From positions 925,544 through 989,543 of the forward strand of contig NC_045151.1 of the NCBI RefSeq assembly GCF_008831285.2: a DNA stretch of 64,000 bases. The letters are read 5' to 3'. This document shows positions 1,877-63,100 of the stretch, piece by piece. Below the pieces are notes generated by a model. That model was not told where the DNA came from, made no database searches, and saw only the letters and a list, made by a program, of their open reading frames with translations. Each line of letters opens with the position of its first letter. Position 1 is the first letter of the stretch. The position numbers were made by a program, and so were the translations under genes. The stretch comes from Nymphaea colorata. Its lineage: Eukaryota > Streptophyta > Magnoliopsida > Nymphaeales > Nymphaeaceae.

Positions 1877-3261
1877 AACAGGTGTAGCATAGCTGGTCAG
1901 GTTGGAGGCATGAGATGAGGGTTTCTTTCGGTTGATTCCTGTGGGCACTACTCTTCTTTTTGGTGTTTTCTCTCTCTTTCTCTCTCTAACATGCAATCAA
2001 ATATGCATGTGCACGCAAAGCTACTTACATGCATTCACTTGTGTATTTGTTTGTATGCATGAGGAGGTATTTGTACCTGGAAGTACGTATCATTTGCTTA
2101 GGATGCGACTCTTGTGCTTGTGCTCATCTGCACATACGTATAAATACCGTCTGCGTATGTGTGTGCACTCTCCCCTGCATGTGCATGAGTCATATACACG
2201 TGTGTGTGCATGTGTATGCTTGCCTATGGCTGTGTGTGTGCATGCACGCATGCATGAGTGTAGGCACGTGCATCTGTGTAAGCATGCAGGCATTGGTGTG
2301 ATTGGTATGGGTTAACATATAACCTTCTAGGTCTTTTTATTTGAAATATGGTAATATGTTATTAGTAAATTTTGTGGCGTCTAACTTTATACATGACCTA
2401 AAAGTTTATGGAGGAAGAGATACCCGGAAGAAGCCAAAGTCCCTCACCTTTTCCTCCTGTTTCTTGGGTCTAAGGTTGTTTCGGGACCTCGGTACATAGT
2501 AGAAATCTTATGACATCTAGCATGTATGATAGGTCAAAGCACGACTGCGCCTCTCACTTGACAGTACTCGGCCTGGTTTTGACCCATCATACATAGTAGT
2601 TGTCATGAACATTCAATGTGAAGGCATGCCCTGAGGTTTTACTTAGAAGCAAATGGTGAAAGAGGGAGTAGTTAACTGATCCCCATGTTTGGTCAACTTC
2701 ATTAATGAAAAGGAGGAAAAGGAAGAAGAAAACGCCATTGACATGAATTTGAAAGGAAGAAGATGCTTCATTATTGAGTCTCCATTTGACCTGATCTTTA
2801 TGTGTCTTTTTATGTCGACTGATATCCCTCCATTGCATCCTTTCAAGTCAAAAGCTGAAGCCATACGATAAGTGATCCACGAAGGGAGGTACATGGAACA
2901 TAACATTTTGACAAACAAGATTTGGTAGCTTGGTATTATTTATTAGAAGGTTCGTCAGCAATGGCATAATTAATCTATAAATTGGACAATTAGAGGAAGT
3001 AGTGATGTGGGCATGATGAATTAAGCACTCAAGCATCAATCTGGCACGTTAATATTGAAATTCTTGACTGCCAAGATGACATGATCCATGATGTTGATCG
3101 TTCCCAAGTCAACCCTGTTCACATGAGCCCACTTGAGCCATCCATCTAAGGATGACTCATGGTCTTCATAAACCATGGGTGTGGTGAATATTTTTTTGAA
3201 GAATTCAACTCATATATGCAACATGTTTTAGGTATATACTATAATTTCTAGCATGCACATG

Positions 3262-4142: not shown

Positions 4143-4983
4143 TTTGTGCAGGTGCACCTTTGAAAAGAGTGTGTTTTGTGCAGTAATGAATCCAGTTCCT
4201 TGAAACTTCATATCTTATATTTTTATGGAGTTGGCCAAACAACAGCTCTATTCACCTAGCTAGAAGATTGAATCTAAGACTTCTATCTTGAACTATTATG
4301 CTTATATGTAATTGGTTCCATAATTTATCTTAAACTATTAAATTTCAAAGTTGGTTGTGCTAATCACCAATCAGAGTCGGTTTTGCTAGCTTCTCAGATC
4401 TTACCGTATATCGCACCAAGGCCTGGCTTAACCCACATTTGGGTCACTCTGCCTTAACCTAGCCAAGTAGACCTAGTTTGCAATGAAACCAGGTCAGAGT
4501 TAAGTGAGTCCAACTTAATCAGATATTGGGCAATGTGAATCCTTGCCTAACCCATGTATTGATCATGAGAGTATTTAGAACTCACTTGAGCTTCCCTTCT
4601 TAATTTTATATCACACCATTATTGTTCTTTGTACTACTTCCTGCCATAACAAGGAGTGTCTCTCTGGGAAATGTTAACTGCTCTCACATCTTGGGCAGTA
4701 TCAAATTGTGCCTTCACACAAAATGGTTTCTATGAGGATTCTGCCATACTCATTTTCTGCAGTGAGCTAGGCCTAGGTACATGCGGATTGCCGCCGTAAC
4801 CCAACCCAAAGCTCTGATAACTGCCAACCTGATCCAGAAATCCCCATAATATCTCTTCATCCCTGTTCTCCAGATTAAATTTCATCCTTTTCCGTTCCCT
4901 CGCTCTCACAGTCTCACACATTCTGACCACCACTGCTTTCCAGGAAGGGCAGAAGATGGATCCAAAGAAGCTTCACTCTTTGA

Positions 4984-54100: not shown

Positions 54101-57100
54101 GATGCTGCAAGAAAACGTACCTCAGAAGCTCTCAAATCTTTTTTCAGTGATCCACAAAACCGTCAAAAAAGAAGCATTAGTATGAAAGGTGAGCCACAAA
54201 AATCTACTTTGCTCTATTCATTTATTTGTTCTCTCTTAAGCTGTACAAGTTCCTCTCGTTAACTCCACAAAAGGAGGTCATTTCTCTTGCCCAAAACACT
54301 CATTATGCAAAATATGTTATTTTCCTGCACTGAGAGTTAAGAGAGAGTGTGGCATGTGTCTCTCTCCTTTCTTTTCTCTACTCGCTGCAAAAGGAGAAAA
54401 GAGGGAGAGGTCTATGTATAATTAAGCTTTCTCCTTTCTTCGCGATTTCAAGAGAAGTTTCTTTTTTTTGAAAATTTTCAAGTAAAGAATGAGTTATTGA
54501 GTTAAAATTTGATTCATTAGTAACATACATACACACACACACACACTTTTAAAAAGCTTGTCATGTCCAAGACAATTGAGTCTGGCACAACACCTGTAGT
54601 GTCCATGCAACAGTCTATTACAATGATGAATATTATTGGTTGGAGGGACATAATAAAATTCAAGTGATTTTAGACAAGTTAGCTCATCAATGTGTTCCCC
54701 TGTCAGCATTTTTTCATTGTCTAGGATGGACGACACCATCTCCTTTGAAAAATGTTAGTTGAAGCAATAGCAAAAGGTCTTGTGGAATATTTTTCACATT
54801 CCATGGAAGATTCACTTGGTTTTGCCTGGAGAGAAGTGAAAATATTTTCATAGGGGATAATGAATATGGGAAATGTGCACGTAAATTTTGTCAAGAAAAT
54901 AAAATCACAAAGTGCGCATGCAGAGGAAAATGTGTGTTTGGTAATGGGTCCTACAGAAAATGGCCCTTTTGATGTTTGTTTCACCAAGCTAGGTAAGATC
55001 ACTATTTTCCTGGCAAAATAGTAGATCTTCCATTGAGAAGTGGATGAAACAAATTGGGCCTAAATCATCTAGATGTGAGCCTTAACATATTCACATATTG
55101 ATCAGGGGGTCATAGCACAGATATAGTTCTTGGGTTTCTATTAACGATGTTTTCATTGGGTATTAATAAAAAAACTGTTTTTCCTGGAATTAAAAATATG
55201 CAAAAGAGAGTAAAAATTATGAGTTCTCTACAAAATTTCTTATAAAAACATTAAAACAAAATAAATTAACTTTAATAAAAAATAAAACAACTGTTAAATG
55301 TCTTAAAATGCTTTGTGTATACACACACACCTTTTTTTTGTCAATATTGTTGTGTGATATTTTTTTCATATTTATGACCTGTGCGTGGGATGTTTGGAGT
55401 CCATTTGATGCGAGGTGACATAGCTTGCCAGTGTCAATTACATCATATTCGATACACTTTTGTCTAATATAGGATGATCTGTCATGTGATTCATGGTCTA
55501 CTGTGATTGAATGTGATCACATATTTAGCTGCTTGGGTGTTGGGAATTTAAGCTGGAATGTTAGAGGGAGCAACTGAGCAAGTAATAATTTCCTTGGATC
55601 CTAATGACATTAAATCATCTTGCCCAAGCTCTGATTGCACTATGATTGCACCTACATTTACCTTACTGATGCAAACCAACTTGCAAATGAACGAGAACTA
55701 CTTGCAGATGAACGAAAACTACAATAAACTAAAGTACTTACACTAGAAGACAATAAAGGAAGACAACACAAGACAAAAGTAACTTTAACTTCATTCGACT
55801 TCAACTGTATACAAAATAGCTTTGCCGTCCATTTATACGGTCGTGAATAACAATGGGTCGGGTCTTGAACAAGTGCCTGAATCCAAACAAACCCACTTAG
55901 ATACAAAAATGAATATGCTAACAAAATGGATAACAAAATAACATGTAAACCAAATTTACATTTCAACCCTTGGTCCGCCTTGAGTATCTACGCAGAGGAA
56001 CCTCCTCTCGCGCAAGCTTTGGGTCCACAGGGGATCCCACGGCTGAAGGCTCAAGGACTGCACTGATGCCTGAAGGTGGAACCTGAGGCGAGGAACTGGA
56101 CCCAGGAGAGTGATGGGTCTAGTTCTGCCATGCATCATTCTCTCCTGGTTGGAGAAAAGTCGTCTCTACGAATCATTGTCACCAAAGTGGGGAAACAGAT
56201 CAGAAACATTGAAGATCGACGAAATTTGCCAATCTTCAGGAAGTTCAAGCAGATATGCATTTTTTCCTAGACGTCGACTGATACAGAAAGGGTCATATTT
56301 CCTAGGACTTAACTTACTATAGGTGCCAAGAGGACATCGCTCAGGTCGTAGGTAGACCCAAACTTGTTGACCCACTTCAAAATTAACATCTCGGCGACTC
56401 CGATCAACACGGGACTTGTAGGTTTCATAGCTCTCTTGGAGCTTTTGCTTCACCTGACTATGGACATCACACATATATTCAATAGCATCTAGTGCCGCCA
56501 GAGCATGCTCTCCAACACCTGGTACTGAGGATAAGTCAACAACATGGTTGGAGGACCGACCATACACCACTTGAAAAGGAGTCTTCCCAGTGGAACGGTT
56601 GACTGAGTTATTATATGCAAACTCAGCTTGTGGTAGCACTAAGTCCTAGGTTTTGGTATTTTTTTCTACCAGACACCTAAGCAAGTTTCCTAAAATCCTA
56701 TTGACTACTTCTGTTTGGCCATCGGTCTAGGGTTGATAAGCACTACTGAATTGAAGTTTCGTATTAAGTAGAGACCATAGGGAATGCCAAAAATGATTCA
56801 GGAACCTCGTATCTCGATCTGATGTGATGGAACGAGGAAGTCCATGAAACTGTGACACATCTTTGAAAAAGTAAGAGGCAACCAATGACGCATCTGTCGT
56901 TCTTTTGCAAGGAATGAAAACGGCCATCTTCAAAAATCTGTCTACCACAACCATGATTGAATCCACTCTACGGATCGTCTTGGGAAGCCCGACGATGAAA
57001 TCCATAGAAACATGCTCCCAGGGCCTATCTGGAATAGGTAGGGGAGTATACAAACCACTGTTTTGACTAGGGCTGGGCATCGGGCCGGGCCGCCTGTGGG

Positions 57101-60100
57101 CTGGCCCCGCCCCGCCCGGTTGCGTTGTGAATTTTTTTTGAAAATTATATTATTATAAAAGTTTTTCTGAAAAGTTTGCAAATATGGTGGACCATTCTTG
57201 TAATTTTCCAAATTTGATATAAAACTTGTCAAACCCTAAATGTTTTTTCATTTCTCGCCCGATATTCTCTCTCCTCGCGGGAGCTGCTCCAAGCGCGGCT
57301 GCTCCTTTTGTTGCGTCCTCTGCTGGTTCGTCTTTTTTCTCATCCTCCTCGCGATCGCGGCCGGCATTGCCGCCGCTGTCTTGTACTTCGTCTTGCAGCC
57401 CAAAGCACCCTCCTACTCCATCGTTTCCCTCTCCGTCAAGGGCTTTGACGTCTCGCAGGCGCTGATCGCGTCTCCCGACTTCGATGTCTCCGTCCGCGCG
57501 GAGAACCGCAGGTCCGCAACAAGAAGATTGGGATCTCCCGAGTTCGACGTCTCTGTTCACATGCTTGGGATCTGCTCCCCTCTCCCTTCTCCTCCTCCTC
57601 TCCCTCTCCACTCTCCCTCTCCGTCTCTGCTCCCGCTCCCTCTCCCTCTTCCTCTCTCGATCCCTTGAGCTGTTTTACGGTGGGTGACGGCCGGCCGTCC
57701 TGGCGGCATCTACCGGTGGCTACCCACGAAGTTGGGTGGCCTGCCGCCTACCGATGAAAGACCACCGCCCTACAGCAGGCAAGCAGTGAGTCTGTGACGG
57801 GCGGTCGAGCGCGGGTTGGACTGAACTCATTGGAGCGCGAGAAGATCCGACCCGGACCGGCCCGCCAAACGGGTCAGGCTGGGCCTGATTTTGGTGGACT
57901 CGGCCCGGCCCGGGCCAGGTTTCAGGCCTGACGGGCTGACCCGGGCCGGGTTTTAGCAGACCGGGCCAGCCCGGCCCGGCCCGATACCCACCCCTAGTTT
58001 TGACTATGCCCCTTTGCGATTTGGCAAGTACGACAACATTGAATAAACTTGATGACATCCTTCCTCATCTTGGGCCAATAGTAACGTTCATCCATCAAAG
58101 AATGTCTTTTCATGCCCAAAATGCCCTGACATTCCCTTACCATGGAGTTTTGCAATAAGTTGTAATCGTAATGAATATTGAGGGATACACAACTTATTTT
58201 CACGTAAAAAATATTGAGGGATACACAACTTATTCCCACGGAAAAGGTAGCAATTGTGAATGGAGAATTTAGAGTCCAGAGGTGCACTTGAGCACTCATA
58301 ACAAATGCGGCTGAAGTCTGGATCAACATGATACATGTCCTTGCAACTTTCAAATCCGACTACCTTCATAGACATGGACATCAGTAGGTTGTTCTTTCTA
58401 CTAAGGGCGTCTGCAACTCTATTGAGCTTTCTTGATTGATGGCGAATGGAGAAGGTGTACTCTTGCATGAAATTAACCCACTTGACGTGACGAGCACGCA
58501 TCTTCTTTTGGCTATGGAGATACTTAAGTACTTCATGATCTGTAAACAGAACAAATTCTTTGTAGATTAAATAGTGTTTCCAATATCGAAGGGTCCGCAC
58601 AACAACGTGGAACTCCAAGTCATAAGTAGAGTACTGACATTTAGCTCCACCTAGCTTCTCGCTATAGAAAGCGACTGGCCTCTTGTTTTGACTAAGCACA
58701 GCTCCAATTTCAACTTTGGAGACATCACATTCTACCTCAAATACCTTAGTGAAGTCTGGTAAAACCAATACGGGGGCATGAGTCATCCGATGGTTGATAT
58801 TGCAAAAGGCGTCCTCAGCCGCTTTGGTCCACTTAAAAGTCTCACTCTTGAGACACTCCGTGATAGGAGCCATAATGGTGCTGAAGTTTCTGATGAATCT
58901 GCGATAGAAAGTGGCTAGACCATGAAAGCTCCTTACATCGCCTATCGTTCTCGGCGTTGGTCAATCGACAATAGCTTGTACCTTAGAGGGATCAGCTTGC
59001 ACTCCTTCTGACGAAACAATGAACCCCAAAAAGACAAGGTTCGAAGTGAGGAAACTACATTTCTTGGCATTGACAAATAACTTTTCCTTACGCAAGGTCT
59101 CTAGGACTTGACGCAGGTGACCAAGGTGATCAGAACTTGTGAGGCTAAAGACCAAAATATCATCGAAGTACACTACAACAAATTTTCCAATGTATGGCCG
59201 AAGGACTTGCGTCATGACACTCATGAAGGTGCTGGGTGCATTGGACAGTCCAAATGGCATAACTAGCAACTCATAGAGTCCGTCTTGTGTTTTAAACGCA
59301 GTTTTCTATTCATCTCCTTCCCGAATTTTTATCTGATGGTATCCACTTTTCAAGTCAATCTTCGAGAATACTTGAGCTCCCGCTAACATATCTAACATAT
59401 CATCCAATCTTGGAATGGGAAAACGGTACTTAACAGTAATCTTATTAATAGCCCGACTATCCACGCACATCCGTTTCGTGCCATCTTTCTTTGGAGTTAG
59501 TAAAGCTGAAACTGCACATGGACTAACACTTTCTCGAATGTGACCCTTTTGCAACAATGCATTCACTTGCCTCTACCACTCAGCATGCTCAATGGGGTTC
59601 ATCCGATAAGTTGGTAAGTTGGGTAAACTAGCACCCGGTACAAAGTCTATAACATGTTGAACATCCTGGTTTGGTGGCAAACCTGGAGGTAGGTCGTCTG
59701 ACATAATGTCTTGAAACTCAGAAATGAGTGGCGCTACCTCTTTTGGAATGTCTGAAGAGATCAAAGACACATGTTTAACAACCAAAGCATAGCAAAATTC
59801 ATTTTCGTTACAATGATCCAAGAATTCTTTACGAGATAGTCCCACAAAACTGGATGGTTGCACTGGACGACCCACTCGTGGTGTTGTGGTCTCCTTAGTG
59901 GGTAGCAAGACAACCTTCCGGCCCTTAAATCTAAATGAATAGGTATTCTTGTGTCCATCATGAACAGTCTTTCTATCATACTGCCAAGGTCGACCAAGAA
60001 GAATGTGATAAGCATTCATTGGAACAACGTCGCACCACACCTCATCCAGGTAATGTGGCCCCATAGAAAGCTTTAGTAGGCACCGTTGGGTGACATCAAC

Positions 60101-63100
60101 TTCTTCTCCCTTTTTAAACCAAACTATCTTATAAGGTTGAGTACACTTCTCGAGCTTTAGGCCCAGGGTAGCAACTGCTTCTTGTGAAACTAGGTTCTCA
60201 CACGCACCACTGTCAATAATCACATCACAAATATATCCCTCATACTTGCATCGAGTCCTGAAAATGTTACTATACAACCATGAAGAATCTGACTTTCCCT
60301 TAGGTGCAGTCAAGACGTGACATATAGATAAAAAGTTGCTTATGTCATCACCATCAAAGTGTACAACATCATCCTGATCTGAACTTGCATCAGATGAGCC
60401 ACTCAAGACTTCCTTACCATCAGAATCTGGCGGTTCCTCTAAAGTCTCTGCTAAGTGAATTTTCTTTTGGGAATTTGGACATTTTGAAGCCAAGTGACCT
60501 AACTCATGACACCTAAAACAACGGATGGTTTGGTCAGAACTACGAGTTTTAGACCGGGTGTTATAAGCTGGACCTGATTGCTCGCCTTTACCAGAAGAAG
60601 GCGGGACGGGTCTGGACTCAATAGGTTTCGAGAAGCTAGTTCCCCTAGTTGGAAAACTTGACTTGGGGCGATGTGAGGCGTCACCCTTAGATACTTGGGT
60701 TTCATGCTTACGTTTCAAGGTTTATTCTATGTTCATTGCATAACTGCTTGCCTGATCTAGAGTATCTACTCTGGTATAATTCAATTCATCAGAAATAAAG
60801 GGACGAAGACCATAAACGTACCTGGTAACCTGTTGACGCTCAGTCTCCACAATCTGGACGCGCAGTGACAGTCGATTAAACTCTATCGTGTAACGCTACA
60901 GATCTCGAGCCCTGACGAAGATTGAGGTACTCATTGTAGGCCCTTTCAGGGTGGTCCGAAGGTACAAACTTGGCCTGCATCAGCCTCTGCATCTCGCCCC
61001 AAACCTGCACGGGTTGCTGACCGCGTCACTCATACGATCTCTGAAGCTCAAACCAGCATGTCTGTGCAAGCCCATGCAGTCTAGTCGCAACAAGTGGCAC
61101 TCTATGATGCTCTTCCACCTGGTGGTAGTCGAAGAAAAATTGGACTGCATAGACCCAGTCAAAGTACTCCTATGCGTCGAATTGTCCAACAAACTTCGGA
61201 AGGTCCAACCTCACCCCATAACTGGCGGGGCGATCTGGACGCTCTGCGGTACGCCTATGTCGATGGTCAACTGGTCCTGCTGGATGCGCACGCCAGAACT
61301 CGTCATCGTCTGAATAGGCTGAGTCGCTGTCAATATCGGTTGGCGCACGAGGTCGGTACGGCTCAACAGGAGGTGGCCTCGGGCGGGTCTGTTCTGTAAG
61401 GGGACCCATCCGCTGATGCCTCTGTGGTGGAGCCTGCGGTAGTGGCGGCTCTGTGACTGCGCACCTGCATGAAATGGAACTGGATTTGGGGCTTGGGTCA
61501 TATGGGCAGACAGATAGGGATATGGGTATGGATTTGTGAATGGATATGGGGTGTGAAAAGGATTTACATGTAGACTTGGGTATGGGTTTGTGAATGGATT
61601 TGGATAGGGGTTTGGATAAAAGTTTGGGTTGGATTGGGTTTGGATCGGGTTTGCTCCTAAACTATTTGTCGGACCCAGAGTGGTTTGGGTTGGATTATGG
61701 ATCAAGTTTTGTGGATAGAAGGCTGGATTTGAACTCGATCCAGAATCCGTAAGAGAATGGATCTGGTTTTGATTCGGTCTAGGAAACAAAATGAGAGGGT
61801 TTCGGGTCCGATTATGGTCTTGGGGCAGGTTCGAGGCTAGAATTATAGGTTTGGATCAGATTTGGGGACACTAACAGATCTAAACCGGGTTGAAATTGGG
61901 TATTTATGTAACTTGGGCCCGGATTCAGACCCATATACCCATGAGTCGGGTGGTATGGATCCGAATCGGGGCCACGTCCCGATTCGGTTCGAACCGGTCT
62001 CGTGAGAGATCGGCTCGACCCGTCCAGCCGTTCGAAAGAAGTCGAGTGGTCGGGCTCGACGTTTCCCCTTTCTGCGTGAGGCAGAGAGGGGAAACCAGCG
62101 GCAGGGGGAGGGGCGCCCACCAGCCCCCACCCGCAATGATGGTGGGCGAGCGGCGGAGGGCGACTGTCCCTCGGTCCACGATCTGCGGTGGGAGGCAGTG
62201 CGACGGGCGACGGTAGGTTGGACGGAGGCGCCACCAAGTTTTCCCTTTTTCGTCGAGTGGAATAGCTTCCAACGTCTCCACCTCCACCACCGGCCGTTAA
62301 GTTAGAAGATCGAATAAGCTTCTTTCATATTTTCACTTGATGGATCTTGCAGGAACAAGAATTTCACTGTTTTAAGCATAAATACTAAAATTACTAAATA
62401 GTAGTTTTTGGGGAACAGACTTCAGCATAAACAGTCTCACAAACGTACACTGAATAATCAGACAAACATTTCAGTCCATGCCAAGATTGTCCTGGCAGCT
62501 GTTACCTGGTTATATGATCTGCATCTCCAAAGCCATCACTGAGATGCTGGTAAGTAGAACATTAAATAACGCCCGACTGTAAAATTTATGTTTAAAACGT
62601 TTTTACGAATCCTGTCCAGTGAGACCTTTTAACAAATAAGGCCAGAAGATGGTACTACTTTTCTACTGCTACAAGATCTCTTTTTCTAGATATCAATCTT
62701 TTTGGTCTCAAATTCTTGATCGACTCACATATGAAAGAAATTAATGGCAGCCGACATATGCTTCTACCATTCCTTATTAAAATGAAAGCTCTTAAAGTTG
62801 AAAATTTCATTAAGTGCCACACCTCAGGTTCTCATTGTCCTTTGATGAACCCAGACTTGTGATTGTTTGTCCTTGTACAGGATTGAAGTTTTACTGCAGA
62901 AATTGTGGGAAGGAAGGACACAGGAGGCATTATTGTCCAGAGCGAAAAGCAGGATCTTATGACAGTCGATATAAATGCAGCGTTTGTGGAGGACGAGGGC
63001 ATAATAGGAAGACATGTGATAAGTTTAAGGGGTCAGATGAAACGAAGAAACCGGAGCCAATGGTCCATCGATGCAGGATTTGTGGTGAAGTTGGCCATAA

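Follow-up and report, generated by a model that had tools for sequence, protein, structure and literature searches.

Introduction

In maize, Du et al. 2011 (PMC3260210) described gene fragments in two Ds2 and nine Ds-l4 elements, a kind of cargo that they termed rare for hAT transposons, and suggested errors of repair as the origin of the captured DNA. Pack-hATs were subsequently reported in maize and rice by Gisby and Catoni 2022 (PMC8903248), and template-switching models for capture are discussed in PMC8277862. Gene capture by hAT elements is already known from maize and rice, and the element described here adds an example of that kind. It is a non-autonomous hAT-type element of 929 bp from Nymphaea colorata, located at positions 57068-57996 of a 64,000-nucleotide stretch (the window; NC_045151.1, positions 925,544 to 989,543 of the forward strand). 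We read it, with a probability of about 0.92, as a Pack-hAT that took up DNA of a long terminal repeat (LTR)-like sequence and of a LEA2/NHL gene in a stepwise manner and then transposed.

Results

The element and the donor of its LEA2 piece

The element lies on C14 and is bounded by a perfect (8/8) target-site duplication (TSD), GTTTTGAC, at 57060-57067 and 57997-58004. Its left end reads TAGGGCTGGGCATCGGGCC from 57068 and its right end, at 57996, reads CGGCCCGATACCCACCCCTA; the inverted arms (57066-57092 and 57972-57998) are 27 nt long and 93% complementary, each arm counting 2 nt of the TSD. The 8-bp TSD and the short terminal inverted repeat (TIR), with the same ends in relatives, are those of the hAT superfamily, whereas MULEs have long TIRs and TSDs of 9-11 bp. 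The G+C fraction is 0.59 in the element and 0.38 in the window. A first-pass annotation of this DNA had placed the element at exactly these coordinates and had described hAT-like ends, a perfect 8-bp duplication and high GC content, all of which our analysis bears out.

The genome searched comprised 407,766,735 bases in 783 contigs. With the LEA2 piece alone as query, it yielded three matches (all three candidates were scored): the window element, C6:20658821-20659080 and C1:35868447-35868689. The C1 match covers query positions 1-251 (251 bp) at 89% identity (E-value 5.1e-89) and belongs to a gene with an open frame of 266 amino acids (aa), the product of which matches LEA_2 (PF03168) with an E-value of 5.3e-9 and a score of 36.9 bits, the cut-off being 25.4. 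Both the N-terminus of this gene and its LEA_2 domain reach past the segment common to the element, one on each side. On sequence comparison, the C1 LEA2/NHL gene is the donor of the captured piece, so that a host-gene fragment stands between TIRs while its donor lies elsewhere in the genome, as in Pack-TYPE elements. The captured part takes in the Cys-rich, membrane-anchor and linker sequence and extends no further than the point where the LEA_2 domain begins. Searches of PDB with the fragment gave no match, and those with the donor product nothing significant. A genome search with PF03168 produced 30 first-look candidates, all of which were scored, and 29 listed places, which did not include the donor; that search therefore overlooks real LEA_2 genes.

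The layout of the element and its immediate surroundings is as follows.

57060..57067, no strand: left copy of the TSD GTTTTGAC (flank comparison)
57068..57092, plus: left TIR (93% complementarity of arms)
57093..57117, plus: GC-rich subterminal sequence of the hAT family, left side (approximate at its right boundary; comparison with relatives)
57118..57285, plus: captured piece 1, AT-rich, from an LTR-like repeat (boundaries approximate; repeat matches)
57240..57668, plus: 142-aa open frame that starts in the LTR-like piece, crosses the LEA2 piece and finishes in the CT-rich part (not supported as a gene)
57286..57536, plus: captured piece 2, LEA2/NHL fragment with Cys-rich, membrane-anchor and linker region (donor C1:35868447-35868689)
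57506..57513, plus: 8-bp insertion shifting the LEA2 frame, also in the second copy (placement ambiguous)
57534..57556, plus: short second fragment of the donor stretch seen in piece 2 (23 bp, 95.7%)
57571..57996, plus: CT-rich middle and right subterminal region (common to family members without LEA2)
57972..57996, minus: right TIR (93% complementarity of arms)
57997..58004, no strand: right copy of the TSD GTTTTGAC (flank comparison)
56727..57059, minus: host gypsy pol, integrase core, downstream of the insertion in minus-strand orientation (rve, E-value 8.2e-9, frame 56727-57149)
58005..58960, minus: host gypsy pol, RNase H and integrase zinc finger, upstream of the insertion in minus-strand orientation (more than one frame; RT_RNaseH, E-value 4.8e-29, frame 58088-58960)

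The first-pass annotation had recognized the Cys-rich and membrane-anchor content and had called the captured frame partly duplicated and shifted. Both statements are upheld, the former by the 251 bp shared with a gene bearing PF03168 and the latter by the 23 bp at 57534-57556, a repeat of donor sequence that the first LEA2 piece also contains, and by the 8 extra bp at about 57506-57513. It had also proposed searching for the parent LEA2 gene and for copies with the same ends; the former was found on C1, and the latter search recovered the same cargo on C6 and different cargo in other relatives. It had missed the other foreign piece, the AT-rich stretch upstream, which was probably taken up earlier.

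The LTR-like piece

Similarity to an LTR-like repeat is seen in the AT-rich stretch at about 57118-57285. This stretch is also present in four relatives (L003, L008, L010 and L012), where it continues for about 110 bp further and is not followed by LEA2 sequence, and it occurs, again continuing colinearly, in repeats that are not family elements. Of 169 candidates found with this piece the best 40 were scored, seven of them at identified family loci and 33 outside; these 40 include four same-strand pairs spaced 3.3-7.3 kb apart. At L017, GCTCTGATACCA directly precedes the repeat edge TGTCACGACC, and we take this motif to be complementary to the primer site usual for plant LTRs. We read piece 1 as a fragment of a putative LTR, to which it is probably antisense. 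Since the AT-rich part matches an LTR-like repeat, the cargo was acquired in at least two steps. At L020 (C9), about four tandem copies of a unit of about 209 bp, 88-93% alike, adjoin the LTR-like repeat (1753-2568).

Copies of the composite and proposed order of events

A second whole copy of the composite, 1,028 bp long, is located on C6 (L002) and has its own perfect TSD, ACGTATAG (8/8), showing movement of the composite as a unit; the different TSDs of the C14 and C6 copies argue against one segmental duplication. A third locus, on C12, is a remnant: of the LEA2 part only about 55 bp survive, and neither a left end nor a TSD is recognized. Relative to the donor, the captured pieces of both whole copies have seven substitutions and the 8-bp insertion in common, in addition to private substitutions (nine in the window copy, seven of which are C to T, and six in the C6 copy). 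For these counts, rows from donor position 455 onwards, beyond the junction, were dropped, which removed nine of 16 shared substitutions and one of ten found in the window copy only. The common substitutions and insertion indicate a single capture that was copied later.

We infer that the LTR-like DNA was captured first and the LEA2 DNA second. In the first step, an ancestral hAT element would have gained about 170-300 bp of the LTR-like repeat, a state that would still be seen in the four relatives named above. In the second, the downstream part of this cargo would have been replaced, in one lineage, by about 250 bp of the LEA2/NHL gene, with the repeated 23-bp donor stretch and the 8-bp insertion arising within the piece or next to it. 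Transposition of this composite would then have given rise to the two whole copies on C14 and C6, each with its own perfect TSD, and to the remnant on C12. Template switching in the course of repair or replication may have brought about the capture, and the composite may have been moved by the transposase of a related autonomous element, for which C1:22739925-22745640 is a candidate.

Several observations weigh against this account. Junction microhomology amounts to just 2-4 nt, judged by eye and with no chance baseline. TSDs are not recognized at L012 or at the C12 remnant, and those of L008 and L010 agree at only 6/8 and 7/8 positions, respectively. Among the LTR-like matches, one pair on C8 has opposite strands, and of five loci four have the repeat edge and one the primer-site-like motif. 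The 23-bp repeat may reflect either a second copying from the donor or a duplication inside the element. Lastly, the element's own LEA2 fragment gave no LEA_2 match in a profile search, an outcome that the first-pass annotation had named as grounds for doubt; this is true of the fragment alone, because it stops where the LEA_2 domain begins, and it is answered by the LEA_2 match of the donor.

A family of related elements with varying cargo

With the whole element as query, 67 genome matches were obtained (best 40 of 465 candidates scored). The right end has 499 matches (252 + 247) with at most one mismatch, and a degenerate 18-mer for the left end has 945 exact matches (507 + 438); reversed-pattern controls gave 0 in each case. 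For right ends, 100 of the 499 places were listed and five, hand-picked, were examined; for left ends, 100 of the 945 were listed, all on C1. Two of the five right ends had perfect TSDs, two had 6/8 matches by eye and one lacked a left end. Of 26 distinct end pairs, at loci chosen by similarity to the window element, 14 have an 8/8 TSD, compared with a mean of 0.025 and a maximum of 1 for shifted flanks; L066, which was not passed by the margins of the end-pair script, provides one further perfect TSD. The LEA2 piece is missing from 10 of 12 family members with a TSD.

The interiors of family members vary, being CT-rich (by eye in L018, L021, L022, L026 and both L048 units) or containing the LTR-like piece or pieces of genes. 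L045 (TSD CTAACCAC) has an LTR-like piece and 137 bp that are 86% identical to a locus whose open frame bears DUF7138 (E-value 3.2e-18). L066 (TSD CTCGCTTG) contains two stretches, 93% and 97% identical, of a single coding-like locus (C2:6771468-6771644), with 48 bp skipped. We take the frame of this donor locus to resemble TPLATE; Pfam and PDB searches with 100 of its residues returned nothing significant. The L068 type is present in three copies with perfect TSDs. One candidate source of its cargo is L074, a further locus with a 92% match, where no clear gene was found, and a second is C4:24297652-24297872 (95-97%, in two pieces); query positions 517-697 of this cargo recur at many places.

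Three further arrangements were observed among these loci. Partial copies of the L066 cargo form two clusters, C10:887923-891417 and C10:944820-945930, about 54 kb apart and on opposite strands. L048 (C15:1769000-1775000) holds two family elements, at 2119-3089 and 4317-4953, which are 1.2 kb apart and have different perfect TSDs. Among the left ends listed on C1 there are at least ten convergent left-type pairs 0.2-1 kb apart (e.g., 7141138+ / 7141855-), which suggests units with a left-type end at both sides.

The window element lacks transposase coding: no hAT domain was found in the three frames tested (57240-57668 on the plus strand, 57153-57674 on the minus strand and 57449-57757 on the plus strand), again as in Pack-TYPE elements. 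In a genome search with PF05699, the best 150 of 1,113 candidates were scored. For three of the 100 right ends listed, a PF05699 match lies 1.3-1.9 kb inside on the same strand; across 2,000 shifted controls, the script counted 0.04 such cases on average and never more than 1. One of these three right ends, at C1:22739925, has a left end 5.7 kb off (C1:22745623-22745640), with a transposase match in a 614-aa frame 4.4 kb inside that left end. Another left end, at C1:42659161, has a same-strand PF05699 match 4.3 kb inside, and for that at C1:42049506 the match is on the opposite strand. L044 matches both PF05699 (E-value 2e-30) and PF14372 (E-value 1.5e-24), its left end being outside the stretch examined. 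An autonomous partner for the family is likely to exist, with C1:22739925-22745640 as the candidate.

Alternative explanations

The alternative that retains the most weight, unlikely as we consider it, is that the LEA2 piece entered by ectopic recombination or as other mobile DNA instead of by template switching. The borders of the piece show neither ends nor a TSD, and the repeated donor stretch beside it may be a trace of template switching as modeled in PMC8277862.

Considerably more doubtful is the idea that the composite is a functional chimeric gene, in which the LTR-like piece would serve as promoter and leader and the product would be a short membrane peptide. In both whole copies the frame that begins at 57240 in the window is uninterrupted, for 142 aa there and for 137 aa in the C6 copy, where a 15-bp deletion keeps the frame, and a TATA-like GATATAAAA and a AAACCCTAA box lie upstream. 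However, the opposite strand of the element is also open, over 173 aa, so that in such CT-rich sequence an open frame tells little; from about 57506 onwards the LEA2 part is out of frame; and the primer-site motif in L017 suggests an antisense orientation of the piece relative to its LTR. The two copies differ by six synonymous and eight non-synonymous changes over 48.3 and 152.7 sites, respectively, which are too few to demonstrate any constraint. In all likelihood, the chimeric frame arose as a by-product and is no gene.

We give almost no credence to the converse history, in which the LEA2 segment is native to the transposon and the C1 gene took it up by exonisation: gene and element do have the 251 bp in common, but the 266-aa gene extends beyond them on both sides and no end pair with a TSD encloses it, although its GC-rich locus does have two weak left-end-like sites (up to 5/18 mismatches), with no right end. 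These points rule out a gain of the segment by the gene, and the family members without it exclude the native origin that the first-pass annotation had set against its own proposal.

Insertion site and window

The element is inserted in a decayed Ty3/gypsy pol region on the minus strand, profile matches to which are found on both sides of it. When the flanks (90 + 91 bp) were joined with a single copy of the TSD to reconstruct the empty site, an open gypsy frame resulted; because this one frame runs across the rejoined site, the element is younger than the gypsy copy. Frame 58088-58960 also has an Integrase_H2C2 match that is under its cut-off (E-value 0.0059). The gypsy pol next to the insertion contains a tandem 36-bp pair, 89% alike, at 58167-58238. 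Further along, beside gypsy gag-pol, window positions 61000-62500 reach a GC content of 0.57 and a GC skew of 0.43 and have long overlapping minus-strand open frames. An Rfam search of the window gave nothing at the gathering threshold.

Discussion

The element is a clear case, with precedent, of the shuffling of gene parts by a transposon. Its value lies in a succession of stages for which the donor is also available: a single genome contains the gene that served as donor, both whole copies, one remnant and relatives apparently at the earlier stage, allowing capture by cut-and-paste transposons to be studied on junctions and not just on single end products. It also carries a warning for annotation, in that the fragment could pass for an NHL gene. 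More broadly, we lean towards the view that a large hAT family in this seemingly early-branching flowering plant captures host DNA again and again, with pieces of at least three genes among its cargo, and that order and junctions can be read stepwise, from ends only, to the addition of the LTR piece, to that of the LEA2 piece, to copying. Titles and abstract beginnings in the open literature searched contained no report of this element or of LEA2 capture by a hAT transposon.

The closest counterparts are Ds2 and Ds-l4 of maize (PMC3260210), which are likewise non-autonomous hAT elements with variable filler DNA, Ds-l4 having a modal length of about 1 kb. Their filler also comes partly from genes or LTR retrotransposons, with a donor gene on another chromosome. 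They differ in their 11-bp Ac/Ds TIR, in place of which TAGGGSTGGG-type ends are found here, and the Nymphaea family is further set apart by a LEA2 composite in two whole copies and by LTR-only relatives that suggest the order of events. The Pack-hATs of maize and rice (PMC8903248) share hAT ends, an 8-nt TSD and coding DNA from another genomic place; they are from other hosts, and the main text of that paper never mentions 'nymphaea' or 'retrotransposon'. Animal Pack-TIRs, including the frog Pack-hAT-N8_XT (PMC8277862), resemble the element in being multicopy composite TIR elements with cargo that is often GC-rich, the difference being that the hosts there are animals. Finally, the rice Pack-MULEs described in the same article also carry host sequence between terminal repeats, and one third of them are, like the LEA2 composite, multicopy.

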